Shown: positions 11,655 to 63,439 of the stretch, one piece after another | Layout: the number at the start of each line of letters is the position of its first letter | Numbering within the stretch: position 1 is the first letter of the stretch | Notes under the pieces: generated by a model | The model's input: the letters and a program-made list of their open reading frames with translations, nothing else | Databases searched by the model: none | Told to the model about the DNA's origin: nothing | Made by a program: the position numbers and the translations under genes | Source: Blattamonas nauphoetae | Lineage: Eukaryota; Preaxostyla; Oxymonadida | Reading direction: 5' to 3' | Length of the DNA stretch: 64,000 nt | Assembly (NCBI GenBank): GCA_033064195.1 | Contig: JARBJD010000122.1 | Location: forward strand, 1-64,000

Positions 11655-11656
11655 TA

Positions 11657-13273: not shown

Positions 13274-13285
13274 TAAACTGCCCTT

Positions 13286-38639: not shown

Positions 38640-39067
38640 CTATCCTTGTTTTTCAGTTTGACGCGATATATTGTGCGCAGAGGATGAAAATTTTCAGGAT
38701 TCTCATTGGTACTTCACTGATTGGCAATTGAAACAGGGAGAAAATTTGAACGATCTCAAACCATGGGTAAGATCACAAAGGTGTGAGAATAGAAAGTCTT
38801 AAAGAACGAAATATAAGCTCGTCGAAGGATAATAATGATAAAAGCAGATGACCGAACTCCTCTTAATCCATAGAAACAGCCTATATTCGGATGAGAAGCG
38901 AAATTTTTGTCATCATTTTTCCATCATCTTTCTGTTTCTGGAGACTGATTCCGATGCAGATAAAGGGAAGGATCGACTTGCCAACTTTCCTCGTGAACAT
39001 TCCAAGACAGTCTAGAAACTCCACAACTCTCATCATATTAGACTGAAGCTCTGAATCATTCATTACC
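38640..39067. other. No gene recognised
   Basis: Intergenic region between the coiled-coil gene and the 5' end of a beta-helix family gene. A short frame on the minus strand (38,881-39,126) has no motif. Confidence 0.45.
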
Positions 39068-39502
39068 ATGAACTTATTCGCCCTTGTGTGCTTATCGCTA
39101 GTCTTGAGCACATCGGCTCCCAGCACGCACCAGCATACGACAGACTATGCCGAGACAAGCATTGTGGGTAACACACCGACTTCAAAAATCCCCAAAATCG
39201 GATCCTTTTCGTCAGTCTCTCAGAATGGAGACGTGATCCAGGAAAACTCGTTCGTACCGAATCCAGAAACCATTCTCCCAAATGCAGAAGGGGAGTGGGT
39301 GGTGGAGCTCAGTGAAAGTGAAGCAGATTGCACAATTTCAAGTCATTCCTCAACCTTGTCAGATGCCGTCGCAGCGTTGCAAGACACGAATGAGTCCAAT
39401 ACTGGCCATGTCGATTCCGGCGCACTCACTCTCACAGAAACTTCACTTGCGGTCTCTGTGAATATGGAAATGTACCTTTGTAACAAACCGAGGTTCCTCT
39501 GA
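39068..39502 (+). pseudogene. 5' end of a secreted beta-helix surface protein gene, truncated
   Basis: The frame begins with a signal peptide (MNLFALVCLSLVLSTSAPS) and continues 144 residues in a Ser/Thr-rich, Asn-glycosylation-prone style like the large gene at 49,007-59,838. The coding sequence ends where sequence shared in inverted orientation with that gene begins (about 39,475). No transmembrane or kinase part follows in the same orientation. It is most simply a truncated family member whose downstream part was lost or rearranged. Function by analogy would be a cell-surface receptor-like protein. Confidence 0.45.
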
Positions 39503-39926
39503 TATTGAGAAGTGGTCCGAAGTAAGGGATTCGGTCCAAATAGGACCAATGAGAACAAGAACACTTCAAAACTTAGAAGATTCTGGTCACCTTACATTTT
39601 CCAATCATCAGGGCGAACCCATGAAGAAAGGGTCAGTCGCGATGCGACGAAAGAGGAAACAAAAACTATTATATGCTTGCAACAGAAAATCCCCAACGGA
39701 GAGCAAAAAACTGTTGCAAGTCTTTGTAAAGAGAGTTCCAAAGGGAACTGGTAAACTGGCCCCCTGCCCCTCGCGGCTTGTGGTAGCAGGTCATCAAGAG
39801 GAACCTCGGTTTGTTACAAGCACCGCCCTTCCAGTAGGTGCTGTTCAAACCTCGGTCCCTCTGATATTGAGACTTGAAAGGAACAGAAAGAAAATAAGTG
39901 ATAGATGAGCTGAAAAGAAAAAGCAT
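39474..39926. repeat. Rearranged inverted fragments of the beta-helix gene family
   Basis: 39,484-39,538 matches the reverse complement of 49,461-49,517 (SQYQRDRG region), and 39,824-39,875 again matches that region in reverse (LNSTYWKGGA). A string ttgtaacaaaccgaggttcctct occurs at about 39,474-39,497 and, reversed, at about 39,800-39,823, framing about 350 bp like terminal repeats. The arrangement could be a small inverted-repeat element inserted into an inverted family fragment, or a series of local inversions. Its limits are not certain. Confidence 0.5.
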
Positions 39927-42239
39927 CCATTATCTTGGGTTTCACTCTTTGGACCATGCTCGTCAGAGAGACCGTGACTCCCTTCGAAAGGGCTGCCACA
40001 GGCCGCAGAGTAGTCTTGATTACGTGGTTGACGAGAAATGTATGGCGGTATCGCAGTTCTGACATCTGTAGCCTTCTGATCAGACTCATTCTGGTCGGTG
40101 TACTGTCGCCGTGAAGCATCGAGAAGAGACGATTCATCGCAGGTTGATGTTTATCCAACATATTTCTCGGTGTGTACTCGATGAGTGTGGGTGAAAGCGT
40201 TTGGAGGCTTGGTCCCATTCGGACTCGAGTCTCGAGCAGGGCTTTCCACTCATGGAGCCGACTTGCTCAAATTATTCAGATTCAACCTTTTTTATGTTGA
40301 TATAATTCATGCGAACATTTTCCTTGGAGCATTTGTTATAATTTCATCTTGATGGCGAGATCTGCAATTGATCACATCCCCATATTTTTCTCAAAGACTC
40401 AAGAATTCCTCCAATCACATTCTAGTTGTTCCACAATCAGAAATCGGTTCATGAAGTGATTGAAGAGATAATATTTTGACACAAACTGCCAGGAACGAGA
40501 TATCGGCGACTCGATCTCTATCTTAACGGTCTCTCACCTTCAAAATGATCTTCTCGATGTCTCCTTACATCTTTCCCATCTCACATCGAATCAAGAGTGT
40601 GCTGCAACAGATGTTGTTCGTAGCTTGTACATAATCATGTCTGAGTTGCAAAATGGACACGCAGAGAGGAGATGCTGTTGTGATCATGATCGTTGTCTGC
40701 TCCTTCCCTCTTGTCCGTGACGCGAACGACAACGTGTTGAGCGGCAAGTGATCGACGAGGTTGGCAAGCAGACCGACAACGTGTTGAGAGAGACTGAGAC
40801 GAACGAGGAGTTCGAAGTCGTTGGAGTGGATGGAAACAGACCATTGTTGGCGATGGAGGCGAGGAGAGTGATGTTCAACGCGGCAGGCAGAAAAGAGCAG
40901 GTGTGATTCCCATTCCTGTTGTCTTGTTGAACGCGATTTGTGAGTGGGGATGATTTGCAATTTGAACAAGAATCATCAGTGTCATCCATTTAGTGTGGAT
41001 GTTTCTCTCACTAATCATGAACGATCCGGCCAGATCGACTTGTTGCGCCGCCGACGATCGATGAGTCTGTGAGCGAGACGGAGTGATGTCTCTCAAGATG
41101 TAGCTCTCGACGCCCGCTTCTGCTGAGAGAGTGTGGAGCGTTGGGATTTGGCTGAGCGAACTGACTTCTGCTGGTCTGTCCGTTTCACTTTCTCCGTTTT
41201 TGGCTCTGATGTCGTGTCAGGCATGTCGGCTCGTTCTTCTCTGCGTAGAACGTGAGGTTGTTGATGTCGTCATCGAAGTAGGATGTTTTTCATCGTTGAT
41301 CCGTGTGCTCTTCCTTGATCGGCAACAGCAAGAAGAGTGTTGGAGATGGGTTGGATGAACTCGGCGGAGAAGACAGCAGCGATGAATGAGGTCAATTTGG
41401 GATCCCCAGCGAGTTGGTGTTTGTCGATGTGGCGAATGTTCTTTGTGGACGAGGAAGGAAGGGAGAGAGAGGAGACCGTCGAGCCAGGCAGCTCGCCAGA
41501 GATGTCTGAATGGCCAGACATGGTTATGTCGATCTCTCCGAATTGATCATAATTTGGTTGAGCAGCGTCCCACTCCATCTTCGCAGCGTCCGTCAGAAGC
41601 GATTCGCGTTCCATCCGATCACATGTAGGTTCGTACGCATCTGTCTTCTTGTCTTGTGATGATGCAATCAGTATGGAGACAAAAGTGCGTAGTGCAAGAC
41701 GCATTCGATGAATGGGTGTTGGGATTGTTCCTTTCTTCTTTCAGTTTTGTGAAGCAACCACAAACAACGACACAATCGACTGCGTTCCTCCGTCTGTCGT
41801 GGCAAGCATATTCTTCGCGCCAATCGGGAACATTGGTTGGTTGTGTTCGCAACGATCGAAAGCTCACCGTCTCGTAATACTGAGCGAGAGAAGATGGCCT
41901 GCTGATTTGAGATACAACATCGCCGTGCGAAGGCGAGAGGTGTTGAGTCGAATGGGATGACGGATGTGAAGGCGGTGTACGAACAGAGAGTGGACATACA
42001 CTCTGAAGTGATCATCTTGATTTCAGGATCGGTGGAGATGAAGTCGTGACAGACATGAAGTTGTGACGAACGTGTTCGATGTCTTGCCGTTGAAGTCGTC
42101 GTGTATCCCCAGAATGATGTAGTCGACCGTCACCAACATTAAAATTGTCAGAACGCCCTTGGCGATGAGAGATAACACGGCGTTGAGAATGAAAGCGAGG
42201 AAGCTGAGGTCAGTTTCGATTGAAGTGGGAGTGTGGGAG
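39927..42239 (-). pseudogene. Degraded minus-strand coding sequence, unrecognised
   Basis: Minus-strand frames with coding character lie end to end but in different frames. They include TPRNMLDKHQPAMNRLFSML (40,100-40,180), PLNTLSFASRTRGKEQTTIM (40,680-40,745), FIAAVFSAEFIQPISNTLLA (41,310-41,390) and MITSECMSTLCSYTAFTSVI (41,960-42,015). The last stretch before the minisatellite includes FLAFILNAVLSLIAKGVLTI with further hydrophobic residues (42,110-42,210), a likely membrane helix. Frameshifts prevent a single gene model. A pattern of hydrophobic helices split by frame changes suits an old polytopic or helical-repeat gene. No family is identified. Confidence 0.3.
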
Positions 42240-44010
42240 AGCGTCCGCGCTCGCGCTGGCGTGTGTGTGCGATGGTATCTGTGTATGTGCGCTGGTATCT
42301 GTGTGTGTGCGCTGGAATCTGTGTGTGTGCGCTGGTGTGTGTGTGCGCTGGAATCTGTGTGTGTGCGCTGGTATCTGTGTGTGTCCGCTGGTGTGTATGT
42401 GCAATGGTGTGTGTGTGCGCTGGTGTGTATGTGCAATGGTGTGTGTGTGCGCTGGTATCTGTGTGTGTCCGCTGGCGTGTGTGTGCGATGGTATCTGTGT
42501 ATGTGCGCTGGTATCTGTGTGTGTGCGCTGGAATCTGTGTGTGTGCGCTGGTGTGTGTGCGCTGGAATCTGTGTGTGTGCGCTGGTATCTGTGTGTGTCC
42601 GCTGGTGTGTATGTGCAATGGTGTGTGTGTGTGCGCTGGTGTGTATGTGCAATGGTGTGTGTGTGCGCTGGTATCTGTGTGTGTCCGCTGGTGTGTATGT
42701 GCAATGGTGTGTGTGTGTGCGCTGGTGTGTGTGTGCGCTGGAATCTGTGTGTGTGCGCTGGTATCTGTGTGTCCGCTGGTGTGTATGTGCAATGGTGTGT
42801 GTGTGTGCGCTGGTGTGTGTGTGCGCTGGTATCTGTGTGTGTCCGCTGGTGTGTATGTGCAATGGTGTGTGTGTGTGTGCGCTGGTGTGTGTGTGCGCTG
42901 GTATCTGTGTGTGCGCTGGTATCTGTGTGTGTCCGCTGGTGTGTATGTGCAATGGTGTGTGTGTGTGTGCGCTGGTGTGTGTGTGCGCTGGAATCTGTGT
43001 GTGTGCGCTGGTATCTGTGTGTGTCCGCTGGTGTGTATGTGCAATGGTGTGTGTGTGTGCGCTGGTGTGTATGTGCAATGGTGTGTGTGTGCGCTGGTAT
43101 CTGTGTGTGTCCGCTGGTGTGTATGTGCAATGGTGTGTGTGTGTGCGCTGGTGTGTGTGTGCGCTGGAATCTGTGTGTGTGCGCTGGTATCTGTGTGTGT
43201 CCGCTGGTGTGTATGTGCAATGGTGTGTGTGTGTGCGCTGGTGTGTGTGTGCGCTGGTATCTGTGTGTGTCCGCTGGTGTGTATGTGCAATGGTGTGTGT
43301 GTGTGCGCTGGTATCTGTGTGTGTCCGCTGGTGTGTATGTGCAATGGTGTGTGTGTGCGCTGGTGTGTGTGTGCGCTGGTATCTGTGTGTCCGCTGGTGT
43401 GTATGTGCAATGGTGTGTGTGTGTGCGCTGGTGTGTGTGTGCGCTGGAATCTGTGTGTGTCCGCTGGTGTGTATGTGCAATGGTGTGTGTGTGCGCTGGT
43501 ATCTGTGTGTGTCCGCTGGTGTGTATGTGCAATGGTGTGTGTGTGTGCGCTGGTATCTGTGTGTGTCCGCTGGTGTGTATGTGCAATGGTGTGTGTGTGT
43601 GCGCTGGTATCTGTGTGTGTGCGCTGGAATCTGTGTGTGTGCGCTGGTGTGTGTGTGCGCTGGAATCTGTGTGTGGCCGCTGGTGTGTATGTGCAATGGT
43701 GTGTGTGTGTGCGCTGGTATCTGTGTGTGTGCGCTGGTGTGTATGTGCAATGGTGTGTGTGTGTGCGCTGGTATCTGTGTGTGTCCGCTGGTGTGTATGT
43801 GCAATGGTGTGTGTGTGTGCGCTGGTATCTGTGTGTGTGCGCTGGAATCTGTGTGTGTGCGCTGGTATCTGTGTGTGTCCGCTGGTGTGTATGTGCAATG
43901 GTGTGTGTGTGCGCGCTGGTATCTGTGTGCGTGCGCTGGAGTCTGTGTGTGCGCGCTGGTGTCTGTGTGTGCGCGCTGGTGAGTGTGTGCGCAGGTGTGT
44001 GTATGTGCGT
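42240..44010. repeat. 1.77 kb GT-rich minisatellite
   Basis: An array of 18-30 bp units made from gtgtgtgtgcgctggtatct, gtgtgtgtgcgctggaatct and gtgtgtccgctggtgtgtat followed by gtgcaatg, in irregular order, about 80-90 units in all. Because units lack in-frame stops, several frames on both strands stay open for about 600 codons, giving THTHQRTHTD-like and CVCALVSVCV-like peptides. These are treated as repeat artefacts. Membrane-like frames flank the array on both sides on the minus strand, so it may have expanded within an old gene. The purine/pyrimidine alternation of (GT)n with CGC suggests Z-DNA potential. Confidence 0.92.
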
Positions 44011-44890
44011 ATGCGTCTGCACGTAAAGCAAGTTGGAGGGAGACAAATATGGATTTCTTCGTCTCCAATTCCAGAAGCGTTGGTGCGAACAGATCTGGAG
44101 AGGACCATGAACATCGTGGTCATGTTCTCGATGATGGTGAAAGCGATACTGCTTGACACCATCAATGGCGGATATTCTTCAAAATGAAGACAAAAGGCGA
44201 GAACGAGTACCTGGATGTGAGGAATGTGAGGGAGGAGTGGTCTTCTCGTTGATATCTAGAGCCTTTTCTGCGAGTGATGAGAGAAGAAGGAACCGACCAT
44301 GTTTGGTGAGAAATGTGGTTGAACCAGTAGAACGAGATAAAGAACCGATCCAGAATGATGATGGGGATTTGCGTGAGATCGCGTTAGGTCAACAGCGGGT
44401 CGTGAGTTGCTGAGAGGATGATCACGAAAGAAAACGAAACAATCTTTGAGAAGAAGTGACGATTTGATGGTAAAAGAGTGTTTGACATTTTTTGGGAATC
44501 AATTGACGGAAATAGGCCGTTTAAACAGAGTTTGAGCGTTGAGAGAGCAAGCTGTTTCGGATCCTCCAGAAAATCCAACGGAATGAATAAGCGCTCTAAT
44601 AAATCGATAAAAATGCGATGGAGGTCAAACAAGTGACAAGTACAATTACTTGAAGGAGTGGGAGGCTGACAAAAGATAATCTCATTCAAGGAAGAGTCTT
44701 GTAAAGAAAGATGTGTGAACGTGTGAAAGTAATATTTGCAGTGGCGAGGGAATTCAGCGGATGAGATCACATTTCACGATAAATTCGTTGTGATTGTGAT
44801 CTGCTGTGAGCTGACCAACTAAGATCAGAACGCCTCCCGTATCAAACAGAGTAGTTTGTCCAGAACCTACAATAACGTGAATTGGAGGGA
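44011..44890 (-). pseudogene. Minus-strand coding-like sequence upstream of the minisatellite, unrecognised
   Basis: Frames at 44,384-44,770 (including LHRIFIDLLERLFIPLDFLE and LALSTLKLCLNGLFPSIDS) and at 44,040-44,165 (SSIAFTIIENMTTMFMVLSR) are hydrophobic and helix-rich. They could be parts of the same old gene as 39.9-42.2 kb, with the minisatellite between them. The frames do not join simply. No family is recognised. Confidence 0.3.
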
Positions 44891-47800
44891 GATAAAGTTG
44901 ACGAATGAAGATCATACAAGAAGTAGTTGCTATCGAAGTAATTTGAAAGAGAAATCAGTTCCCCAAATCTTCGTACTTCTCGGTATTAACCATAGCCTGA
45001 GAAAAGGGTGTTATCATCCCAAGTTCGACAAAGACAAGATGATGCGATGATCCGAGTATTCCAGACGAGAACAAATTGCATAATATAAACCTGTACGTCC
45101 CCATTCTAGTTGAATTCGATTGGATTCATCACGTTTGGCCGTGGATTTCGCCGACTTTGCAGGATCATCCACAATCTGTGAAGAAGAACAAGATCAACAA
45201 AATTATCAACACTCTCCCACAACACTCCCGAATAAAATGAACAAGATCAACAAAAACACTACCATTATCCCGAATCATTCCTCAACAAGAAGAAAAAGAT
45301 GACCTAATCAAACAATACAAACGCACTCTCCTTTCACTCTAAAATAAAGAAACGAAGAAGAAAGAAAACATCTTCTGATCTCCATAGCAATCGCCAACAA
45401 TTGTGGAAAAGATTCACACAACTTTCGCCATTCTTAGTCTCAAATTCAGAAGGACAGATCAAGATTTACCCTTTATTATCTTCTTTTCATCCAATCGGGA
45501 GAGACTCTCAATTTCATATCATCATCTTGTCTAAATTTGATGTATTAACTTTGTCAGAGTTTTCTGAAGAAAATTTGGTGTTTTCTATTTTTTTGATGTC
45601 GCCCAGAAAATTATGGGTATTTTTGGAAAGCCCTGGTCTCGAGTCAGCAGCTGTTGGAGCGAGAGAGTCGTTCAGTACTCATTGCATGAGGTGCGATATA
45701 TTGCAGGTAATCCGATAGATGTGACCATGCAAGCCCTTTCTCGTTGTTTCCAGGTTCGGTTGCTAAGTCGATGGTTGGATCCGTTGTTTTCAGGACTGTC
45801 CCTTCAGAGTGATGTCGTTTCCTTGTTCCCAATCTGTCGCGACTTCAGTGAGTGAATTCAGGAAAAAAACTGACGCGGCCGCTCGTTTGGATGCCCAAGA
45901 TCGTCGTCCGTTGACTGTGAGATTGGTGAAGTTTGTGTTCGTCATTTGAACGAAACAGATCGCTGTTTGTCTTCTTCCGATAACCTTAGAGGTGATGAAT
46001 ACATCTCCCCTTCAATGGAGGTTCTTTCCCTGTCCGTTGATTGTATGGGGAGTACTTGTGGTCGAGTCCTTCTTCCCGAATTTCAGCTGCAGTGGAACGG
46101 CTTCGAATAGTGACAAGTCGCCAACCATTGTGATTTTCACAGTTCACCCGTTTCCATCGAATTGGTAGAGTCAGCATTTATTGACAACAGGTGAGACACT
46201 GTGCCTTCGCAAAGGTGACGGGCGAATTCGCTGCTAGTTCGTCGTGGTGGACGAGAAATTCTTCTTCTATCATCTGACCGTCCAGTTATTCGAACCGAGA
46301 TCACGCGTGTGTTCTTCGAAGGCGTAATGATCTTTGTGGACGAGTACGTCTTCCCCAAGTTTAGTCGAATAGACTTTGTTGTTGAATGATGCGTCGTGGT
46401 GATTGGACAAGCTTGGTCTGTCCACTGCGATCGTCAAAGTGGACTCAGTCATAATACTAGACACCATTTCTTCCCTCGAATGAAGCTGAGCAAGACGGTG
46501 AGCGAACGATCATGTCTCGGATAATTACTGTCCATACATGATCAAGTCGAATGCTTCATGAGTCTGCTTGATACCCCCGATGTGTTCAGTGCCAAACAAT
46601 ATGATGACAGTTCGCCTATTGTCACTGCGACTAACCGCAGTCTTTGACAAGGATATCGTTCACTACTCTCTCAAACGACCATGATAATGCCACGGAGATA
46701 TTTGTCCTGACATGTACAAGGTTCCACAGATGAGAGCGGTGAGATGATATGGGCGAGAGGGTGAGGGCGATTGATAGTTCGTCGGGCTTGAACAGAAATG
46801 GTTTGTGACGGAACGAGAGTTCTTTTAGATCCGAGTAATTACCGGTGCGGCGAGTTGGAGTTCTCTTTGGAGCAGAGAAGCCCCTTTGGGTCAGAAAGGA
46901 GTCTCACTGCTGTGAACCGTTGAACGCAGATGAGCAGACGTCCTTCACATGAACCCCTCAGAAGTACCTCTTATTGAATAAGAGTTCAGTTGAATGACTC
47001 TGTCGAAATCAGAGAGTCCTTGGCAAACACCTTGTCATCTTTCTGAATCGAAACGTCGACTGATTTGTTGTTGATGGTTACGCAATGTATTTATTTGGTT
47101 ACTTAGTTCCCTGTCAGATTGGGAGATCTTTCGTGATGAAGATGGATGAATTGCTTTTCCCTCCATGTTCAGACGCTGCCATAACACTTCATTGAAGCAC
47201 GACTGGAGAATTCTCACTGCACTGTGGAGAACAGCTGCCACTGCCGTCTCCATGCTGCCATCATCGATGACGGGGAACACTGATCGAGCTTCGAGATGGA
47301 GAGGTCAAAGATGGGTGACAACTTCGCTCGCTACATCTTTGTCCTCCATCGATAGTCTGAATCGCGGCAACTGGAACTTGAGTTGCGTGGCGACCTGCTT
47401 CCAGATCTGTCCGACCTTGACTGGCTCAGAGGGACGCCATTGGAACTGTTTTGTTTAACTCAGCCAGATTTGATTGGGATTGGTACAGGAGTCTCCCCGT
47501 TGGAGCGAATGCAATTTGGTTGTCTGAGGTCGGCTCCTCAAGTGAGGCAGTCAGATTGTGAAATAGGACGAGCGGTTGGTCAGTCGTTGATGTGAAGTCT
47601 GAGTCTGGTATCGGCTTCAACGATGGAAAAATCTCCAGATCTTGTCAGAGTCAGCCATTTTGACCGCGATTTAGGTCCTCGAGAACAAGCCAGCGCTGAA
47701 AATCAGGGAGGGGTATCAATTCGTCTATTCGCCCAGTGAATGTTTTCGTGGAGCAACGCTACTTCGTGCTCTTCCTCCTTTGACGATGATGCATCTGCGG

Positions 47801-49006
47801 GGTCAAAAATGCTGGGAGGGTAATGATGTTCTTTAGTTGTACCGAATGAGGACTGCTCATTGAGTCTGGTTGGTCGTAAGAGACTCTTCGTGACGAAAGG
47901 CGACCGATCTGTGTCCTAGAAGCGCTTGATGTCCAGTCGAGTCCGGGATTCTCTAAAACGAGGATCCCTTTTGCTTTAAGCTCCCTGCCAACAATTGATG
48001 CCAGATATTGCTGCCTTTGTCGGATTGAGGGAATTTTTCCTCACGAGGTGCGGCTCAAGGGCGCGAAATGAATCTGTTTGTAACTTGGTTGATCTGGGTG
48101 TTATTTTTCCGGAAAGAGTGTTCGCATCGGTGAAACACCATGCCGACGAAGTGGAATTGGTTATTAGGAAGGTTCTAGCGTGACCGGAACGTGAGCTTTG
48201 AACATCTCCGATTCGTCGAAGATGACCTGTCCACTCCACATAAAAGACTCTCTATTTGCTGAACAATCATCAATGTTTCGCATGTTTCCTCCATTGCTGA
48301 GGATCTTGTTTGTTCCCATGGCAGCTCAGACCACTTTGATGCTGAATCACGCATGATATGTGTGGGCACTTCTGGAGTCCTAGCCAATCGAATTCCTGAC
48401 CGTGTGTGGAGTCAAATAGTATAGAGGTTGTAAAAGTCGATATCTGCCGCACAATTGTTTGGGAATCAATGTCTTGATTCCATGGTTCGGATGATGACCC
48501 TCGACGTGTGACGCGGCTGTATACACCCCGCTTTCATTTCATAGGTTATGGAGATCGACCCCTAGTCGTTGCTTTCTTGCTGTATACGGTTAATCTCTCC
48601 TCAGATTGAGTCGACATGCGTCTAGGCGTCTCGAATGGTCTAACTCAATATTGTTCTGGCTTGAACGTGTTAAGTGACCCAGCAGGTGTTTCTGGACACC
48701 TCGTACACTGTCAGAGGTGTTGCTTGAGTGAAGGTCTTGGTTTGGAAACTCCGGACCGTTGGAAAAGTTGGGCTGTGCTGATGTCGCGAATAAAGGATTG
48801 GTCAAGCATAGATCCAACAAAAGGCTAATATTTCAATATCTTAGAAACATTTTTCCTCCTCTACTCATTCATATCAGCAGGTTTTTCCGCATGTTCGTCA
48901 TGCCTGGAATCGGACGTTGCGTCCGATAGATAAGTGAACTCCGAAGTGCCGGAGTTGAATGTAAACTTGTTGTTCTTTTCGTATCTTCAACCCTTCCTCC
49001 TTCAAA
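44891..49006. other. Mostly non-coding or strongly decayed sequence
   Basis: No frame exceeds about 105 codons. Some minus-strand pieces have the Ser/Thr/Asn-rich style of beta-helix proteins (for example FLITNSTSSAWCFTDANTLS near 48,120-48,180 and VLFHNLTASLEEPTSDNQIA near 47,510-47,570). This suggests an old minus-strand family member, with plus-strand mirror frames being shadows. No terminal repeats, RNA genes or promoters were recognised. Confidence 0.35.
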
Positions 49007-52000
49007 ATGAATCTGAACGCATTTGAGATGAATTGGATGATCATCTTTGTCTTCATCATTTTCACTGCAAGTCCGTCAAAGAAGGGAGGTTTCGCCCAGG
49101 AAGGAGGACTATCCTGGTGAAAGGAGGCATATACATCGTCAGAAGGGAGACTTGTTGATTCTGAAGAATTTTGTGATCAAGTCTTTGGAAAGCCGCCTGG
49201 AAGGTTGTTACTTCGAGCTTTTGCCTCATTGGGGCGAAATAGTGGATTGATAATGAGTGCGAGATAATTGGAGGGCTGGAGAAACGAGAAACGAGGATTG
49301 AACCGGTTGAATCCTCGATTCGTTTGTCATAAAAATGTGAATCGATTCTACGTCTCGTAGGTCACCTACATCTTGTCGGAGAGCTTCTTGCGGAATTTCG
49401 ACAAAGAGTAACGTGAAGGAGGAAGGAAATTTCTGAAGTGTTCATAATCATTGTGTTCATCTTGGACCGAATCCCTTACTTCGGACCACTTCTCAATATC
49501 AGAGGGACCGAGGTTTGAACAGCACCTACTGGAAGGGCGGTGCCTATGTGAACGGAAGCGAGAATGGCACAGACCAAGGGGACTGCACGACTGAGGAGTC
49601 GCCCTGTGCCACACTTGGCTATGCCATCGCACTCCAACCAGAGACTGGGGGCTATGTAATACAAACCATCCAATTTATGCACTACATGGAATACACAGAG
49701 ACGAAAGTGGACGTATACGATCGGGACGTTACAGTCGGTCGGAATGTTGAGTAATTTGTAACTCGTCATGTCAATCTCGAAATCGTATCTTCGTCTTTTT
49801 TATCAATAATGAAAACAGTTTCGCACATAAACCTCTAGTGTGTGTCGCACTTGTATGTACTGTCGATTTAGTCGTTCATCTTTCCTCCAAATCACTCATT
49901 CGCTTCTGTTGAGCAAAATCTTCAACTTTCATGGTCGTCGAATCCTGACGGCATGAAGAAGCATATCGAACTGAAAGAAACAACAGACAAAGAACAATAC
50001 CACAGCAGCTCATTGGAGACATAGCTGGATTCGCACCTTTACAGGTCACCCAAATTGATTGATTGAAAAATGGTGATCCAGTCGACGGGCAACAAAAGTA
50101 TCATTTTTTTGCTGAAGAGGACTGAGTCGATTACCGTAAGGAGAGAAGACAATTTGAAAGGCATATTGCGTATTTCTATTCCAATATTTGACTTGTAGAC
50201 TGAAAACATGAATCGAATGATGGCCAACAGAACCTTCTCGCTCGACTTTATTCCGTTGAATTCAGATGAAACTGGCTTTCATTTCAATAATTCGATGATC
50301 ATATCTGATATTTTAATGAATCATTTCTGATGTCGGTCCATATCTTAAAAATGTCATCACGTGATCTTTGCATCTATTGAACCATTTCAGCTTGTCCTCA
50401 TGCAACAGGTATGTTCCATCTATCTCAATCAGTGTCGTATTGATATTCGACTTCATCTCTTTGTCCAAGAAACAATCGCGAGCTGAAAACCGATGTGAGC
50501 AAGGTAGGGACCGACATCAGAAATGATTCAAAAAAATCAGATATGATCATCGAATTATTGAAATGAAAGCCAGTTTCATCTGAATTCAACGGAATAAAGT
50601 CGAGCGAGAAGGTTCTGTTGGCCATCATTCGATTCATGTTTTCAGTCTACAAGTCAAATATTGGAATAGAAATACGCAATATGCCTTTCAAATTGTCTTC
50701 TCTCCTTACGGTAATCGACTCAGTCCTCTTCAGCAAAAAAATGATACTTTTGTTGCCCGTCGACTGGATCACCATTTTTCAATCAATCAATTTGGGTGAC
50801 CTGTAAAGGTGCGAATCCAGCTATGTCTCCAATGAGCTGCTGTGGTATTGTTCTTTGTCTGTTGTTTCTTTCAGTTCGATATGCTTCTTCATGCCGTCAG
50901 GATTCGACGACCATGAAAGTTGAAGATTTTGCTCAACAGAAGCGAATGAGTGATTTGGAGGAAAGATGAACGACTAAATCGACAGTACATACAAGTGCGA
51001 CACACACTAGAGGTTTATGTGCGAAACTGTTTTCATTATTGATAAAAAAGACGAAGATACGATTTCGAGATTGACATGACGAGTTACAAATTACTCAACA
51101 TTCCGACCGACTGTACCGTGATCGGAACAGCAGCAGACACTTGGAATCCTGATGATATCTACCGAAGTCTGATCGTGTTCGGCCCTAATCTGGAAACTAA
51201 TGCATTCCTCTTCACAATATCGGACAATGCAAAGCTGAATGTGATGAATCTGGACATCCATGCCCCCCAGTCTAATGGTGTGTTCCGAATGACAAGCGGC
51301 GCTGTGGGACTCGAATTAGAGCGCATCTGTGTCATCTCGAAAGAAGGGGATCATCTCTGTTCATTAATCGAGACGGAGTCAGGAACTGTCATGATCAACG
51401 AATGCCGCTTCGAATCGGAGGATTCTTTATCCCCAGCCACCTTCTTGAAACCCGTGATCAATCTTCAATCTGCTGAAGAGTCTTTCTCCTTCTCCCACAC
51501 TGAGTTCAACAGGTTTCAGATGACGTGTGGCCTTCTGGACTTGTCGACTGCCGGAATAATCTCCTTCCATCAAAACACCATAAATGACGTGTGGCGGTCT
51601 GACGAGAATGATTCTCTCGTCATTGTCAGTTCACACAACTTGTCCATGACTGTCCCACGTGATTCTTGGTCGATCTATGATTCTGAATTCGTTCCTCTAA
51701 ACCAATTCCTCGGTCGCGACCTCAGCCTGCCGCAAGACGATCCTTTCTACGAATCGACACTCCTGTTTTACGTCTTTCCCCCGGTGAACACTGTCCACTT
51801 TGGCGGATCGTATGGAGATGGTGGGTTGGAGAGTACCCATCCAAATTGTGGCTCGTATAGACTGAGATGCTCAACACTGGACGCTGCCATCACATCAGCG
51901 TGCTTCCACTGGGTTATGGATGTCCAGATCGTTGGACCTGCTGATTTCAACGAAACTGTCACTGTGACTAGCTTTATCCAAATCAAGTCCGGATCGGAGC

Positions 52001-55000
52001 TTGAAACGGTCACGCAGATCGCAAGTGGTGTGATCGAGCTGGGTAGCCTTTCCGATCTTTTCATTTCAAATATCTCCTTCGTTCTGAATCCATCGAGTGA
52101 AGCATCGTGCCTCTTCTCAGTACAACAAGGCTCACTCGAATTGAGCAACTGCAAAATCGGCAATTCGGAGTCGACAACAACACTGGGCAGTGAACTCACT
52201 CGTCTTGTGGACGTTGGAAGTTATTGCAAGCTGGTTCTGAGACAGACAACAATCATGAATCTCGCCTTCTCCCATTCCGACAATGGCACTTTGTTTTATC
52301 TCGCATCCAACGCACAGATTGTCATCCACGACACGGACAGCATTCCATATGAAATCATGTCGAACGGGTCTGGCTTCATCATCTTCGCAGAATGTGACGA
52401 TATTGCATTAACCGCAGGCAGCTACGATTACGACATTGTGAAATACAATATAACTGTTCCCAAAAATCACCCCTTCACTGAGGCAGAGAGGAACAGGTTC
52501 GTCGGTGAGGATCAGGAACAAAAGCAAGAGAGCTTCTTTTGGACGTGGTTCCCTCACACAGACACTGAGGAGAAGATTTATGCCGATAAGGAAGGCATGG
52601 ACCACCACAATTGTGGATTAATCGCCATGCCTTGCTCGTCGTTCGAGATGGCGTTTAAGAGTCAGAAAACAGCAACAACGAAACTACTTCTGAACACCGA
52701 AAGCAACCTCACCCAAGGTCTCACTAAGATGTCCACCACACTCACCACCACTCCCTTCATCCTAGACCATCGGGAAACATTGTTTGTCAATACGTCAGGT
52801 TCGATTAATCTGATGTCCGCGACACTCGTCTTTGAGTACATTGATTTTGAGAAGCATGATGAACGAGATGATATGATGGCATCGTTACTCTTCTCTTTGT
52901 CCGACAACAGCAACCTCACACTCTTCTACGTCTCTTTAACCTCAATCACTCATTCTGGTTATGGAGCTGTGATCAGTTCGGATTCATTTGAAACCATCTC
53001 TCTCGACAATGTGGAGTTCAAATACTGCAACGAAGAGTCTTTGGAGGACGGTCGCGTGATCCACATTGCGAAGGACTCGTTCTCGTCTGGTGATGTCATC
53101 ATGAAAGCGGTGTCTTTCACCGTCACTGAAGGGAGAGAAGGGACAGATGTGTTGCTGAAGGGAGCCGGAATTGAGAATACTGTGACAAAGGAATCATTTG
53201 ACAAGACATTAGTTAACGATGTTCTATTTGGGCAAAAATTTGACAAATTAGACACTTTGGTTTGATCAATCTAAGATGCTTAAATCGGAGGTTTAATCTG
53301 TCTCAATTGTCTTTCATCACATTTTTCGACTCATTGAACCACTTTTCTATAGATATGATCTTGAGGATGGAGGTGTTGGGAATGGGTTGTGAAAAAAGAA
53401 ATCTATCCTCTATCTTCCATGGTGTCGTCCATTCGGCCTCCAAAATTGACCATAGCTAGATAAATCCTGACTAAAATGATTCATGAGACATATCTCACTT
53501 CTACACAATGTAGAACCTCTCAAAGAAAGAGACAAAAACCAATGCCAGAAAACAGCAGCTCCCAAGAGAATCTGAGCCAATTCTTGGATTGAAAAAGCCT
53601 TGTAAACATTTCTTCACTCACTTCACTCGATTTCATGAATGAAAAATTTCTCCGGTTTTTGTGAAAAAGAAACTGCTGTCTAAATTGTCAAATTTTTGCC
53701 CATTTTTCATTCTGAACTTGGAACAGTTTATGGGTGACGATCAGGAGAAACCCGAACACTCTGGTCCACTCGCCTATTTCTTATTTCCACACACAGATGG
53801 AGATGTTACAGTTGATTCGTCGTTCTTCGATCACGCGTATTGTGGGAGGGAGAAGCTGCCGTGCTCATCTCTGTCGCATGGATGGAGTCAGCTGAAAGAT
53901 TCATCGGCTGTCGTTCTCTCCGACGCAACCTCTCTCTACACAACCACTCTCAGCACATCGCTCACCACAGCCCAAACCTGGCAAGAGCTGAAATCGAACA
54001 TTCATGTATTCTTGATCGCCGTCAACGACTCTGGGTCGTTCATTGTCTCCGCAGGCACTTCTCTGTCTCTTTCGATGCTGGACTTCTCCTGGGTGGACAT
54101 GTCATCATCGTCGTCGTCTTTCATCAGCCTGGCCAGCACAGCGTCTCTCTCTGTGACATCCTGTTCGTTCACCGAATTCTCCTCCTCAGCTTCAGGATCA
54201 GTTCTGTCTGGAAGTGTTGGAGAGGACTGTTTTGTGGAGTTCGAGTCGACTAGATTCAAGTCGTGCTCATCGACAAACGAAAAAGGGTCGGGCGTGCTTG
54301 ACATCGCTCTTCTTTCGGAAACGTCGTCATTTCTCCTGTCGTCTAGTTCATCATTCGACTATTGTGTGTCGACAGGAATCACAGCACAGATCCTTCTCCT
54401 CTCTCATCCAACACTGAGCACATCAGTGATCGAGAACTCGATCCAATCATTCTGGTATCAAACCGATTGGTCAGCCACTGAGTATGTTGGGAAGGAAGGG
54501 TCGTTCCTGCCTCTCGTGCCCCTCTACTTGTACTTCACTGCGATGGAGTCGACTGGCTATCTGGATCCGGAGTGGTCGGACATGTCGGTGTGTGGACTCT
54601 TGGCGTACCATGCGGATCTAACCCGACCACATGGATCTAACCCGACCACAAAAGACACTTTTTCGACTCATTTGAGATTTTGAGAGTCCAACATCGAGAG
54701 AAATCGAACTTCCAAAATAGGATTCCAGGGCTGGGGCGCCTATTTCGGAGTCAGGGTATCGAGGTCCTTAACATAGGGAATCCAAACTTCAGAACCACTT
54801 TTCTCCACGCCTGTTCAAGATTTTTCTTTTCGTTTCATTTCTGGTGGTTTGGGATGGTTTTCTCGAAATGACAATTTTTCGAAAAATGAAAAATTCTGGG
54901 GGAAATTTAGGGTCAAATACTGATTTCCTGTATAACAAGCTTAGGATCTTGAAAACTTGTTTTGATCATATCTCCACAACCAGACATAGTTCGGACATGA

Positions 55001-58000
55001 AGTTTTCACCAATATGGATCTTTTGTTGAGAATTATTTTTTTCTGAAAATTTTGAAAAAATCCCCTTGCGGCAGTTGAGATAAATATTTGCTGATTTTTC
55101 GACAATATGGTCTTTCTGAACTAACTCTGCTTTATGTTTTTCAATTTGACATCAAATTCGATTAAATCGATGTCAACCCAGGTTCGAATGAATTCAAACA
55201 ATAATTTTACAACAAAACTTAATATTCATGTAAATTCTTGAACGGGACTGGAGTAATTGACGGAAAAGTCCCAAAAACGCCAAAATAGGAAGTCATCGAA
55301 ATTTTTCAAAATTTTCAGAAAAAAATAATTCTCAACAAAAGATCCATATTGGTGAAAACTTCATGTCCGAACTATGTCTGGTTGTGGAGATATGATCAAA
55401 ACAAGTTTTCAAGATCCTAAGCTTGTTATACAGGGAAATCAGTATTTGACCCTAAATTTCCACCCAGGTCCCCCCAGAATTTTTCATTTTTCGAAAAATT
55501 GTCATTTCGAGAGAAAACCATCCCAAACCACCAGAAATGAAACGAAAAAGAAAAATCTTGAACAGGCGTGGAGAAAAGTGGTTCTGAAGTTTGGATTCCC
55601 TAAGCTTAAATGTTAAGGACCTCCTATTTTGGAGCCAAAAAAGGGTCGATACCCTGACTCCGAAATAGGCGCCCCAGCCCTGGAATCCTATTTTGGAAGT
55701 TCGATTTCTCCCTCGATGATTCATGGGGGAGGGAGGAATCCAATCTCCAAATGGGTTGGACTCACTCAAATGTGGGTTTGGAGAAATCTGGGATGGATTG
55801 AGATTTGAGTCGAAAAAAGTGTCTTTTGTGGTCGGGTTAGATCCATGTGGTCGGGTTAGATCCGCATGGTATCCGTGCAAGTCTCTGCCGTCGCTCTGGA
55901 CGCGATTTGGAGAGATGACAGATGTGACGATCGAAGTGGAAGGAGACGTGGAACAAGTGAAGTCAATGGTGTTTGACAAGAACGTTCAATTGAATGGAGG
56001 AGGACACACTCTGACGATCAACGAAAAAGAGACAGCGAGAAGCACAGAATCAGGATTGTTTGGAGTGAGAAAGGAAGCAGAAGTCAACTCGATGAAAGTG
56101 GAGATCGAAGCGCTGACGAGCGGATCGCTGTTTGAATGCTCGTCATCATCGTCGCTGACACTGATTCACAGTTCCATCACGCCACTTGTTGCTTCGATTG
56201 CTGGCTGTTTGGTTTGTGTGAAGGAAGGAGCGAGTCTGGTTGTCACAAACACTTCCTTCTCTTCTGTCTCTTCGACACATTCGCTGGCAGGAGTGATTGT
56301 TGCGAAGATTAAGGAAGGGTACTCGTTCAAGCTTGACAATGTGACATTCTCGTCGTGCAGCTGTTCGGGTCGATCTCGTTGTGTTTGGATGGAGCTTGTG
56401 AACACGACCTCCTCGCCCTCTTTTGATTATTCGATGACGGATCTGAAATTCGAAGAGTCATCTGCACGAACTCAGAACACCGCTGAATCAACATCAGGGA
56501 TTGACGTGTATCTGTTTGGAAGCGGATTGGATTCGATCATTAAATCGGATTTGTGGGAAGGAAGCTGGGCCAAGTCGAAGGAGCGATCGCTGTGGGCTGA
56601 AGACTCGAAGAGTGGAGTGAACAGCTCGATTCTTCCGTACATTGTGGACATCGAGAATACCGTGGAGGTCGACGAGACTGGATGGCTTTTCTCGAAGTGC
56701 GGACACTTCTTGCTTTATTGCGACACACTGGGCACTGGACTGAGTCGAATGAAATCAGCGAACCTTGGATCGATGACGATCATCACCTCTGCGCCTCTTT
56801 CGTCTCGATTGGAAGCGAAGGGCGTGTTCTCGATTGTTGGGAAGACATCAACGTCCACTCTGAGTCTTTTGGAAGATGGACAAATTGATGTCGTTCGAGA
56901 TGGACTTTTGGAGTCACATCTGACACTCAACATATTCTCTCTCGTCTTCTCGTCGACTCGTCCTTCCACTTCGTTCATCACATCCACCGCATGCTCCCTT
57001 TCTTTGCTGGCCTGCTCGCTCTCTTCTGCGTCGGGGTCTGTTCTGAATGTTCTTCTGATCGAAGTGTTAGGTGGATCGCTGGACATGAATGGAGTGACAT
57101 CATCATTGATCAAAACAACAACATCTCTATTCTCCACTTCGAGTTCTGTGGTGATCGATTCCTGCTCGTTCGAGCATGTTTCGCGCAGTTCGGATGGTCC
57201 TTCGATCCTCGTTGCCACACTCTCTGCGACAAGCCCTGTTTCGATGAAGAACACGAAGATGGTTGGAAGTGTGTCGAATGGGAAGACTCAGTGGGTTCTG
57301 TTGAAAGGAGGTCATGCAGAGTCAGAGACAGAGGAGAGCTGGACAGGAACGTTCAACGCGAGCTGTGCTCTGTCGGGTGTGATGATCGAGCGAGACGCCT
57401 CGACACTCCCCTTCGACTCGAAGTTCAACCCGTATTCGCTTCTGTACTGCTTCCACCCCCGCACTGCTGGTGAGATTGTTGTTGAGACGACATCGAGCTC
57501 GGCTGACCATCCGCTGTGTGGGAACGTGAAGCTTCCTTGTCGCACCGTTGACGCTGGATATGGTCTGACACTGGAGCGTTGCGTGAAGATTGCTGGAAAT
57601 GGGGAACTTGGATCTCGGATGGAGTTTGATGGGTTTGATGTTGCTGTTCGCTCGCTGCGACACTCTGGATCGCTGTTGGTGGTTGGAAAGGGTCAGATTG
57701 TGAATGGAGAAGCGAATGGATTGGATTCTCTGACGGTCAGCGAGCTTGTCGTGAATGTGGATGGTTCCACACTGACATCTGATGAAGGAGTGTTTGAGAA
57801 CAGAGGAGGGATTCTGGTGTTGTCGAAAGTGAATGTGAGCAGCTCTTCCGAAATTGGGAGTTTGGTTGTGAAATTGAGTGGAGGGAAACTGACACTCACG
57901 AACTCTAATTTTACGTCACTCTCGTCGTCGTGTGCTCTGATCTCGCTTTCGTCGTTTGAATCAGCTGAGCTGGAACATGTTTCTGTGTCGAACTGGAAAG

Positions 58001-59838
58001 GATCGACATTTCTGACCGCTTCGAATGGGAAGTCGTCGATAACGATGCAGAATTGTGTGTTTGATGGAGTGTTGGAGAACTCAGAATCAAACGGAGAAGA
58101 CTTGTGCAGCTGGTCGGGTGGGATGGTGCGACTGGAAAACACGTCGTCGTCGTTGATGTGGACGTCATTCACTCAGATCGAGACCGGTGCTCTGGTTGTG
58201 GATGGGGGATCGGTGTCGCTTCATTCGAGTGCGTTCGAAGACAACTCGGCCGGAAACTGGTCGTTCCCGTCGTTCCATCGGAACATCGGATGCCGAAATG
58301 GAGGGAAAGTGTCGATTCAGAGTCTGAGTGGAGGAGACGGGACGAAAGACCGCCCGTCGGCTTGGATCTCGTCAGACTGCTCAGTTTCTGGGCAGTTGAT
58401 TGATGTGGATGCTCCTCTGTTCATCCCGACACTCGCCGACGAGAACTGTTCGAGCACAAAAGACTCGAAGACATCGACTTTTGAAATCAGCGTGGAAGGA
58501 ACTCAGCTAATTCCGTGTGGATTGTTGCTTGAGATCTTCTCAAAGGACAACGAATCAGAATCGACAGAAATCGACTTGTCGTCAGCTCCGACGACATTTT
58601 GGAACGAGACGCATCTGAATCTGACGATTTCACAGAAAACAGATCTGTCGATGCTGACCGAAGCGAACGAATGGCGAGGTCGTCTAAAGTATGGAAATGG
58701 ATGTGTGACGTCGAACAGTTTCGTTGTGAAGGAACTCGCTGGGAAAGACAACCAATCTGAATTGAAGAAAGCGATGAAAATCTTCATTCCAATCATCATC
58801 GCTGTTGTTGTGGCGTTGGCTGTCGTCCTTCTGATTGTGATCATTCTGTGCTGTCGCCGCAAGAACAAGAAAGCACAGAAAGACATCCATCAGTCAGACA
58901 TTCAAGAACTGGACCAGGTCGACATCAAAGTGGAAGAATACGACGAGAACAACTTGGATGGGTCGATGAACATGATCAAAGCGAACAGCGCTCTCACCTT
59001 CACCGACCACAGGACTGACTCTTCCGACGCGGTTGGGACTGATGCATATGATGCTGCCGGATTATTCTCAACGGAGACGGACCTTCGGGCAAAAGGGGAA
59101 TTAATGACAGTGATGAAATGTGGGCAGGAGAAAGTGGAAGAGACGACAGTGGAGATTCGGGACACGCTGTACAGCAGACTGCACAGGCCGAATCTGACGC
59201 TCAATCCAGCGCCGCTGAACAAGCCACAGCTGAAGCAGATGATCACAGAAGCGATGAATGACATTGCACGGACGAGGCCAACCGCTGAGATTCTTCGGAA
59301 GTTGACATCGCACTGGATTCTGTTTGATGTGAATGGGGACGTCTTGTTCCGATTGGAGCAAATGAACAAGGAGAAAGGGAAGGAAGAGCTGAGAATGGAG
59401 GGAGTGGTTGGAGGAGAGGCCGAAGTGGAAGGAGCGACGCAAAAGCAAGTTGTTGTTGGAGAGAAAGGGGAAGTGAGACACAACGACGAGCAGCGGTGGG
59501 TTCCGCCAGAAGAGGCAGATGGAAAGGAGATTGTGGACACAACTCATGGGACGGTTTTTCGGCTCGGCCTTGTCTTGTGGGAAATTGAGACTGGTCTTGT
59601 TCCCTTCGGGGAGATCGATGGGATCAACGCTCAGCGACAACTGGGAAGCGGAGTCTTACCAAAAATGGATCGCGTGTCTCCCGAAATGGCGGAGCTGATC
59701 GAAAACTGCCTCCAAATTGATCCTCTGAAACGACCGACACTGGCGAGCCTGGCGCAACACTTCAAAAGTGAGACGAAAGACGATCCGACGGGAAAAGGGA
59801 AAGAATCGAATGGAAACGCCCTTGTTTTGAATCAGTGA
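49007..59838 (+). CDS. Giant secreted beta-helix receptor-like protein with pseudokinase-like C terminus, split by three transposon-like insertions
   Basis: It starts MNLNAFEMNWMIIFVFIIFT at 49,007 (signal peptide). 49,093-49,514 could not be joined and may hold another rearrangement. Host coding then runs 49,515-49,731, 51,114-53,229, 53,706-54,607 and 55,870-59,838. The gaps are three insertions whose precise removal keeps the frame. The ectodomain is Ser/Thr/Asn-rich beta-solenoid sequence divided by a Cys module, (H)xxCGxxxxPC(S/R)(T/S)L/V, seen near 49,590 (variant), 51,840, 52,605, 53,835, 54,590/55,872 and 57,510, about 250-290 residues apart or multiples. A transmembrane helix (IFIPIIIAVVVALAVVLLIV, about 58,780-58,840) leads to a cytoplasmic kinase C-lobe: WVPPEEADG, VFRLGLVLWEIETGLVPFGE, LIENCLQIDPLKRPTL. 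No Gly-rich loop, VAIK Lys, HRD or DFG is visible, so it looks like a pseudokinase. Ligand and substrate are unknown. Confidence 0.75.
49732..51113. mobile_element. Fold-back DNA element A (long inverted repeats, TA duplication) inside the beta-helix gene
   Basis: A 1,382 bp element. The left arm (49,732-50,339) and right arm (50,508-51,113) are nearly identical reverse complements of about 607 bp around a 168 bp spacer. The ends read CAGTCGGTCGGAATGTTGAG and are flanked by TA on both sides (49,730-49,731 and 51,114-51,115), as in Tc1/mariner-type insertions. No transposase is encoded. Both arms carry the same 62-codon frame in opposite directions (MAIIRFMFSVYKSNIGIEI), which matches nothing I know. 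Removing the element plus one TA joins VYDRDVTV to IGTAADTWNP in frame. Confidence 0.88.
53230..53701. mobile_element. MITE-like element B inside the beta-helix gene
   Basis: A 472 bp element with imperfect terminal repeats of about 26 bp (GGGCAAAAATTTGACAAATT at the left; GGGCAAAAATTTGACAATTT at the right, reversed). It is flanked by ATTT on both sides (53,226-53,229 and 53,702-53,705), a possible 4-bp target duplication. There is no coding content. Removing it with one ATTT joins LVNDVL to FFILNLEQFMGDDQ in frame, and the restored stretch continues the family pattern (compare RNRFVGEDQE upstream). The superfamily is not assigned. Confidence 0.78.
54608..55869. mobile_element. Fold-back DNA element C (long inverted repeats, TA duplication) inside the beta-helix gene
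   Basis: A 1,262 bp element. The ends CCATGCGGATCTAACCCGAC are perfect inverted repeats for over 60 bp. The inverted arms continue to about 55,059 on the left and from about 55,301 on the right, the right arm carrying about 110 bp extra near 55,700-55,800. The flanks are TA on both sides (54,606-54,607 and 55,870-55,871). There is a subterminal direct repeat of ggatctaacccgaccaca. It encodes no transposase. Removing it with one TA joins VCGLLAY to PCKSLPSLW in frame and rebuilds one of the gene's CG....PC Cys modules. Confidence 0.9.
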
Positions 59839-60997
59839 CACGCCAACACTTCATCACTCATCATTTACTTCATGTCTCATACAACCACACTCACTCTCTT
59901 TCGTTTGACAACCACAACATACTCATCACAACTCGCTGGGGACCAGAAACCAGCAGGAGCCAAATACGCCTCTTTTGATGGTTTCGACCCCGCGCTCTGT
60001 ATTCATGTCAACATCCTTCTTTCTTCGCAAAGAACCGCTTTCTAGTTTCATGTCATACTCTCGGGACTGACTATAGTTCATCAGCGTTTTCAACTATAGT
60101 TCATCAGAGACCCATATCATGGCAACGAGGGATCCGGCCGGCAATCAAATGTCGACTCCAACCAAATCGAATCAAAGAAAAATAAAGAAATTGACCGGGC
60201 AGTGATTGTAGAAAGTGCAGTGACAGTCTCAACAGACTCAGCTCCATCTTCGATCGTAATGTTCTGCGACTCGTCATAGTCTGACTCGTCTCAGCTGTAT
60301 GGGACGTTAGCTTGGCCGTGCAGCTCGATGGACTCGGTGTGGTCATCAAGGATGGATTAATCACGATTTCTCCGAGGGTAAGTGGAGAGGTGTCAGAATG
60401 TGGAGAGAAGGATGAATGCTGTTCGTCGGTGAGTGTTGGACTGAAGACAGGATTGAACCAGAAGCAGGTCGACGAGAAGATCATTCTGTCGATCGTACAC
60501 TCATCGGCATGGGTCCATTGTGTCTGGTGGTTTTGAAAAGAGTCTGGCTCAACGGGTTCAATGTGTCTGGCGGTAGATTTCTGAAGAAATCTGGAATGTA
60601 TCACAATATAGTTTTCATATATGGTAGTGATGAGATTCATAGAGAGGGTGTCGAAGGGACAGAACCACATAAAAGTCATGGAATGATGAAATTCGTCCTG
60701 TCAATGTTGATCTGAAAAAACCCCAGGTTTTGACTTTATGGATGGTGATTTTGAAAAATCATATGTTTATCACATAATAATGTTCAAAACAGACAATAAT
60801 CGAAATATAGTGAACCTACAAGTCCAATGAAGTGATAGTTATTAAGGATTTCGAATCGGAGCCTCACATTCTTGAAGGGCAGATCCTCCATTGACTGCTC
60901 CGCCTGTAGCAACAGTTGGGAAAATAGATGCCAAGAATGTAATCAATCGATTGTGTATGTTCCAACCCTCAGATGCTCGACTTTTGGAGGTATCTCA

Positions 60998-61080
60998 CCA
61001 CCAGACACACTGGACCACCGCCAGACATATCGGACCACCACCAGATACAATGGACTTCGCCAGACACACTGGACCCATGC
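60998..61080. repeat. Short minisatellite 'ccagacacactggacc'
   Basis: Four degenerate tandem copies of about 20 bp (ccagacacactggaccaccg and variants). Inverted, related copies occur at about 60,505-60,570 (gggtccattgtgtctggtgg), so the interior of the outer MULE-type element contains a weak inverted repeat. Confidence 0.7.
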
Positions 61081-61271
61081 CCACTCATCGTACTTCGGGA
61101 GCAGAATGTGGGTGGGATCAGAAGATGTGGAGGTTGAGGGCAAGAAACGAAAGCGAAGTAGACTGGAAGTGGAGGATCGAGATGCGTGAGATGTCGATCA
61201 GCCTGCCATCAGCGTCAACCGGAGGAGGAACGATGTGGATGGTGTGGGGAAGAGGAGAGGTGGGATCAGAA

Positions 61272-62849: not shown

Positions 62850-63439
62850 GGATCAGAAGGCTGTGATGGGGTCGGTGTGTGCCCTTAGCGGACGACTCTC
62901 TCTGAATGGAGTGATGATGAACTGCATATGGATGAGCGAAGGAGTGCCGCTCGTTTTGGGGGAGAGTGGATCGGAACGACTTCTTCCAGTTCTCCTCTCA
63001 TCTCCTTCTCGTCGACATCTCCCGACAACTGCTTCGCGATCCAAGGTATCTCACCGACAAACACAACGACAGTGCAAGCAAGTACTTCCTCGCCTTCGAT
63101 GCCACTTCTTTCGGTTGTGTCGGCTCCGCGCTCGATGGAGCTGGCACATTGCGAGTTGAAAGATTGTGGCTCACTCTCGTCGACTGGAACCCCAATGAAC
63201 TCGATTGTGCACGTGGTGTCGAACTGCTTCTTCATAGCATGTTTCCCTTCGTCTTCCTCATCATCGTCGTCGACTGCTCCTCGAGGTTGGCATCCAAGGT
63301 GGATCAGTGCTCTTCTTTGGGTGGCATTTTTTCATCATGAACGAAAAGAAGTAGATTCGACTCGCTCCCAACAGATTATGGGTCTCTGATGAACTATAGT
63401 TGAAAACGCTGATGAACTATAGTCAGTCCCCATACTCTC

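Follow-up and report, generated by a model that had tools for sequence, protein, structure and literature searches.

Probable recent insertions of three non-autonomous DNA transposons in a damaged beta-helix/kinase-like gene of Blattamonas nauphoetae

A giant, surface-protein-like gene from a large beta-helix/kinase-like family in the gut protist Blattamonas nauphoetae, an oxymonad (PMC10703272), is interrupted by three insertions, here called A, B, and C. Very probably, these are non-autonomous DNA transposons of an ordinary kind, mobile until recently, which entered the gene independently of one another, the gene itself being now damaged. The sequence analyzed, referred to as the window, comprises 64,000 nucleotides (positions 1-64000 of contig C27, in an assembly of 88.3 Mb and 837 contigs), and the coordinates of the three elements, of a fourth one (D), and of the host coding segments are collected in Table 1. 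A and C would be palindromic Tc1/mariner-type elements that insert at TA, and B would be a miniature inverted-repeat transposable element (MITE) with a 4-bp target duplication.

Insertion sites and empty paralogues

The limits of A, B, and C proposed in the initial annotation are confirmed, with target duplications of TA, ATTT, and TA, respectively, present on both sides of the elements. Moreover, deletion of the three elements, each with one copy of its duplication, yields 2,400 codons with a single terminal stop between 49,512 and 59,838, which bears out the claim that precise removal keeps the frame open; the first ~10 of these codons are part of element D and not of the host. This restoration is automatic for any target-duplicating insertion into coding DNA and is therefore uninformative between recent insertion and removal of the elements at the DNA level.

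The same sites are empty in other members of the gene family. Nine paralogue loci (L070-L078), whose main match shows 55-63% protein identity, are unbroken across the B and C sites (9/9), and all five paralogues whose fetched stretch extends to the A site run through it without a break. Also, a single alignment at 59% covers host residues 15-1530 with the deposited protein P0005, which is the same paralogue as L077 on contig C255 and not independent support.

Families of the three elements

Searches of the genome place each insertion in a repeat family, the figures that follow for these searches being matches and not copies, with only the best candidates scored. For element C, which is palindromic in blocks, 199 matches were obtained, and all 16 copies having both 16-base end motifs are flanked by TA at either end, a count that leaves out six loci without both motifs (L024, L026-L029, and L036) and eight second arms of counted copies. 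A longer relative lies on contig C178 (L082), being an element of 3,071 bp with TA on both sides, terminal inverted repeats (TIRs) of ~635 bp (96.9%), and ends that match those of C over 443 bp (98.6%) at either side, and it carries an open frame of 504 residues that matches PF13358 (DDE_3) with an E value of 8.7e-21. Since the ends of C are common to an element bearing a DDE transposase frame, C is its non-autonomous relative, and it presents both the TA duplication of Tc1/mariner elements and a longer same-ended relative with a DDE transposase. Very probably, the transposase of this relative would have mobilized C. In a genome scan for DDE_3, all 150 candidates scored, the best of 432, are over the cut-off.

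The copy of C on contig C590 differs from it by 18 mismatches, of which 15 fall at element positions 58-90 and only three lie outside a scarred stretch. The scars are eight deletions (116 bp), all in the first 319 positions of the left arm (54608-54927), and the right arm is without them. This one-sided scarring may be an assembly error or biological, for example hairpin-related damage. Open frames carrying C copies at three other loci (L010, L014, and L021) can be aligned to the beta-helix family of the host gene. Separately, two inverted C-type ends ~9.5 kb apart on contig C38 (G000:C38:53929-63444) perhaps delimit a larger composite element.

Element A is built of two arms of 589 nt that are 100% complementary, and a search with 669 of its bases gave 45 matches, some of them remote (down to 68-70% identity). 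Comparison with a copy on contig C46 shows 6 mismatches in 1,099 sites and 6 gap events. A TA duplication is found at the window copy, at L004 and L005 (whose flanks are identical, in inverted orientation), and at the relative L080, a TA-flanked element of 1,619 bp on contig C778 that has two stretches in common with A, one of 33 bp (97%) and one of 325 bp (70%). This A-related element (L080 173-1791) itself sits within another beta-helix-like frame, which is open for 467 codons across the joint.

Element B is a MITE that makes 4-bp target duplications, and its superfamily is unclassified. The search with B gave 36 matches, and the copy on contig C212 has no mismatch in 472 sites. Among 16 copies with both ends, the 4-bp duplication is perfect in 10, reduced to 3 bp in 4, and absent in 2 (L054 and L056, each lacking an end, were left out, and the weaker loci L057-L068 stand outside the count). 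A TA target duplication is not found at B, which is not assigned to Tc1/mariner. On contig C72, two B-like copies of 470 bp with 69% identity (L059 and L060) lie inverted around ~2.3 kb, and visual reading of the frames between them, with no search against protein families, revealed no recognizable transposase.

The initial annotation had left two options, either recent insertion of all three elements in a working gene or their removal from the DNA. Recent insertion is the one favored by the close copies elsewhere, the transposase-bearing relative of C, and the empty paralogues, and the gene hit would be an expendable family member; removal at the DNA level gained no positive support.

Element D and the loss of coding sequence

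Damage in the host coding sequence had been named beforehand as part of what would mark an ordinary dead gene, and such damage is found at the 5' side, where element D is accompanied by ~575 codons that are apparently missing. Homology of a paralogue on contig C82 to the host gene starts at ~49,544, and ~575 codons separate the points of C82 that are homologous to both sides of D, with a similar spacing in six further paralogues. The 155 of these codons that adjoin 49,544 were searched against the window without any match, and this adjoining coding sequence is absent. Going by the spacing in the paralogues, the full loss between the N-terminal exon and 49,544 would apparently amount to ~575 codons.

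The N-terminal exon begins with a signal-peptide-like stretch (judged by eye), and each of its ten best non-self matches is followed downstream by a paralogue that the exon between A and B matches as well. These matches are on contigs C258, C129 (twice), C255, C27, C45, C513, C135, C82, and C745, nine of them within frames of at least 3,531 residues and the tenth (C255) in a frame of 913 residues. The gene start proposed at 49,515 has to be abandoned, position 49,543 being the right end of multi-copy element D and the N-terminal exon lying at 39,065-39,477. On the same ground, and because 49,380-49,543 is a repeat end, a gene start near 49,515 that would use a signal-peptide-like ATG at 49,007 followed by a 5' intron was also rejected.

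The extent of D follows from its repeated ends. At the right end (49,380-49,543), 27 of the 39 matches listed besides the window copy stop exactly at 49,543, 11 extend 1-11 bases further, and one falls short, the best 40 of 130 candidates having been scored. At the left, the first 342 bp (39,478-39,819) are contiguous with the next 301 bp (39,820-40,120) in 37 of the 39 other copies listed, on which ground 39,478-39,819 was rejected as an element of its own. Pairing of the ends by eye (+/- ~10 bases) gives ten copies. The window copy measures 10,066 bp, six others fall at 4,650-4,659 bp, and the remaining three span 5,187-8,089 bp, the family length being ~4.66 kb; a GT-rich minisatellite occupies 42,253-44,009 inside the window copy. 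D has an inverted repeat of 53 bp (39820-39872/49491-49543) and no clear target duplication, and Pfam on ten of its short frames gave nothing above the cut-off. Across D, the phase agrees if no bases are duplicated; CT is repeated at both sides, and D is therefore not a fourth clean case.

The distance from the N-terminal match to host residue 46 is 1,855-1,867 nt in seven paralogues and 3,101 nt in the C255 paralogue. In this last one, an extra ~1.24 kb is present (L084, C255:46250-47100), where the frame runs into non-coding DNA matching none of A-D. Therefore, the family takes other inserts too.

Taken together with the insertions, element D and the apparent loss of ~575 codons in the same gene would describe a redundant copy that is freshly dying, and in which later insertions would have been tolerated.

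Age of the insertions and placement in open frames

No stop or frameshift is found in 7,200 nt of host sequence, which bounds the neutral divergence accumulated after constraint was lost at no more than ~0.23-0.95%, under assumed indel/substitution ratios of 0.2 to 0. For the placement of the copies, half of the 16 C copies (8) sit inside frames at least 200 codons long, with at least 20 codons on each side, one of these frames (L016, 261 codons) being maybe a chance frame. The C copies in open frames include L010, L014, L017, L020, L021, and L023. With a looser criterion (at least 120 codons, 500-bp flanks), the proportion is again 8/16, compared with 49% for the TA sites of those flanks (binomial p 1.0), a baseline that is biased toward the observed value because it is drawn from the same loci. 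Compared with the TA sites of the window (23%, strict criterion), C copies are in excess (p 0.016). B copies lie in frames in 3 of 16 cases against a baseline of 52% (p 0.01), and in 2 of 16 under the strict criterion.

Several observations weigh against recent insertion of ordinary transposons. The ~2,390 host codons are stop-free despite the insertions, and therefore all of the insertions must be recent; the C copies are not depleted from open frames, as purging would predict for old copies. In the assembly, no near-identical second allele of the exon was found, and so it shows no allelic empty site. For A, two more copies differ from the window copy at 33 of 1,167 and 38 of 1,125 sites, the relative L008 is without TA on its left side, and the transposase-like frames of L080 reach only an E value of 0.0029 with PF13358 (17.9 bits against a curated cut-off of 28.6), with the reading split over frames. 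Also, no source element of B was found. As for the C copies, their unpurged state in exons needs no excision, because these copies are young.

Splicing, excision, and assembly error

Removal of the elements from the RNA is quite unlikely. In this case, A, B, and C would leave the pre-mRNA through cryptic GT-AG pairs near the joints, giving a slightly altered protein, and in-frame GT..AG pairs are indeed found within tens of bases of the joints (four for A, six for B, and seven for C). However, such pairs are expected by chance (they were counted without a control), and no GT-AG pair is found at the exact joints, whichever of the equivalent excision registers is taken (three for A, five for B, and three for C), in agreement with the initial annotation. 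A deposited protein, BLNAU_13818, corresponds to the last host exon; it agrees with the host frame as far as residue 1,259 of its 1,393 and then departs. Its first two residues would fit a start at 55,770 and a donor inside C, with an acceptor at 55,881 and a splice to 55,882, which is a point in favor of such removal, but the model begins within C instead of joining across it. Moreover, no deposited protein was returned for the exon between A and B among candidates of 0.55-1.75 times its length, and the 5' deletion and element D would persist after any such splicing.

Programmed or somatic excision of the DNA, with precise removal as for the internal eliminated sequences (IESs) of ciliates and with carrier genes that still function, is very improbable. 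The TA boundaries of A and C are in its favor, and the end of A fits the TAYAGYNR consensus of Paramecium eliminated sequences, as had been noted, along with the misfit of C (TACCATGC). The fit of A is expected, since this consensus resembles Tc1/mariner ends (PMC3464196). The distribution of the C copies seems to take no account of coding sequence, with 8/16 in open frames, and Paramecium IESs are placed nearly at random relative to genes (PMC3464196); in Blepharisma, a pogo-family MITE makes up an abundant part of the eliminated DNA (PMC9942856). The C255 member of the subfamily, with its unrelated insert in frame, is a further point of this kind. However, the copies are young and multi-copy, a state in which unpurged elements are expected anyway, and the boundary of B is of 4 bp and not TA, with B under-represented in frames. 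The nine fetched paralogue stretches without insert and the apparent deletion of ~575 codons argue in the same direction. We give very little credence to the wider proposal that oxymonad palindromic Tc1/mariner-type MITEs lie in exons at the rate of random TA sites because they are excised with precision, by some activity, at the DNA or RNA level.

Finally, chimeric joins that would have put the elements into the gene during assembly are hardly credible: long palindromes are hard to assemble, and the left arm of C is scarred, but the perfect target duplications at three sites and the intact flanking frame are unlike chimeric joins.

Comparison with known systems

As in non-autonomous MITE or fold-back elements of the Tc1/mariner type, A and C have a TA duplication, inverted ends, and ends in common with a transposase-bearing element (clearly for C, probably for A), whereas the palindromes of the window are unusually long (~1.3 kb). 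The Tc1 element of Caenorhabditis elegans also inserts at TA in exons, from which it can be spliced imprecisely.

The eliminated elements of Blepharisma and Paramecium are the closest parallels, with which the window elements share a probable origin and a position. Like the elements called MITIES in Blepharisma and the IESs of Paramecium, A and C are TA-bounded MITE derivatives of Tc1/pogo type within coding sequence, with an end in A that is similar to TAYAGYNR. Unlike them, the window elements show no sign of excision and are young and multi-copy, and the TA boundary expected on every element of the Paramecium type is found on A and C and not on B (ATTT). The hosts differ as well: the coding sequence that carries ciliate IESs would be otherwise intact, whereas the window gene has an apparent coding deletion (~575 codons by spacing), with D as a further large insertion where the 5' break lies. 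The GT-AG pair that spliceosomal introns would place at the exact joints is likewise missing.

Oxymonads are not known to split germline from soma. A literature search at the level of its listings found no paper on Tc1 elements of oxymonads, and no paper was found that joins Blattamonas with transposable elements or oxymonads with programmed DNA elimination.

Features of the window

Outside the gene, the minus strand of the window carries an SNF2/RING helicase-like frame (17822-22774) and a CEP104 TOG-like frame (23811-26072). Directly downstream of the gene, two nested elements (60063-63430 and 61272-62849) have TIRs and perfect 9-bp target duplications (CATACTCTC; GGATCAGAA), and a further element with 41-bp inverted ends, possibly flanked by TA, lies at 11655-13275.

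Table 1 Coordinates of the interrupted gene and its elements in the window
Feature	Position	Strand	Basis
N-terminal exon, same beta-helix gene	39065..39477	+	Protein search; ten best non-self matches with E 1.3e-23 to 1.7e-19
Element D, multi-copy, unclassified	39478..49543		10,066 bp; repeated left and right ends; copy lengths; minisatellite array
Host coding segment left of A	49544..49731	+	Open frame; C82 paralogue homology from ~49,544; last 2 bases are a TA duplication copy
Element A, palindromic, Tc1/mariner-like	49732..51113		TA on both sides; arms; C46 copy; ends common with L080 element
Host coding segment between A and B	51116..53229	+	Open frame; nine paralogue loci aligned; last 4 bases are an ATTT duplication copy
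Element B, 472-bp MITE	53230..53701		25-bp TIR starting GGGCAAAA; ATTT on both sides; C212 copy
Host coding segment between B and C	53706..54607	+	Open frame; paralogues continuous; last 2 bases are a TA duplication copy
Element C, palindromic, non-autonomous Tc1/mariner	54608..55869		TA on both sides; ends 98-99% identical to L082 element
Host coding segment 3' of C (beta-helix end, probable transmembrane segment, C-terminal kinase-like lobe, stop)	55872..59838	+	PF07714 over cut-off; partly the deposited BLNAU_13818

Biological implications

Restoration of a reading frame is by itself no sign of programmed excision, any target-duplicating insertion giving the same result. If precise removal of such elements were true, Blattamonas would be a non-ciliate with IES-like elements, and a demonstration of excision would extend IES-type biology beyond ciliates. 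On the very probable reading as ordinary transposons, the window would reflect the recent activity of several families of DNA transposons in an oxymonad, whose insertions would be tolerated in giant multi-copy gene families.

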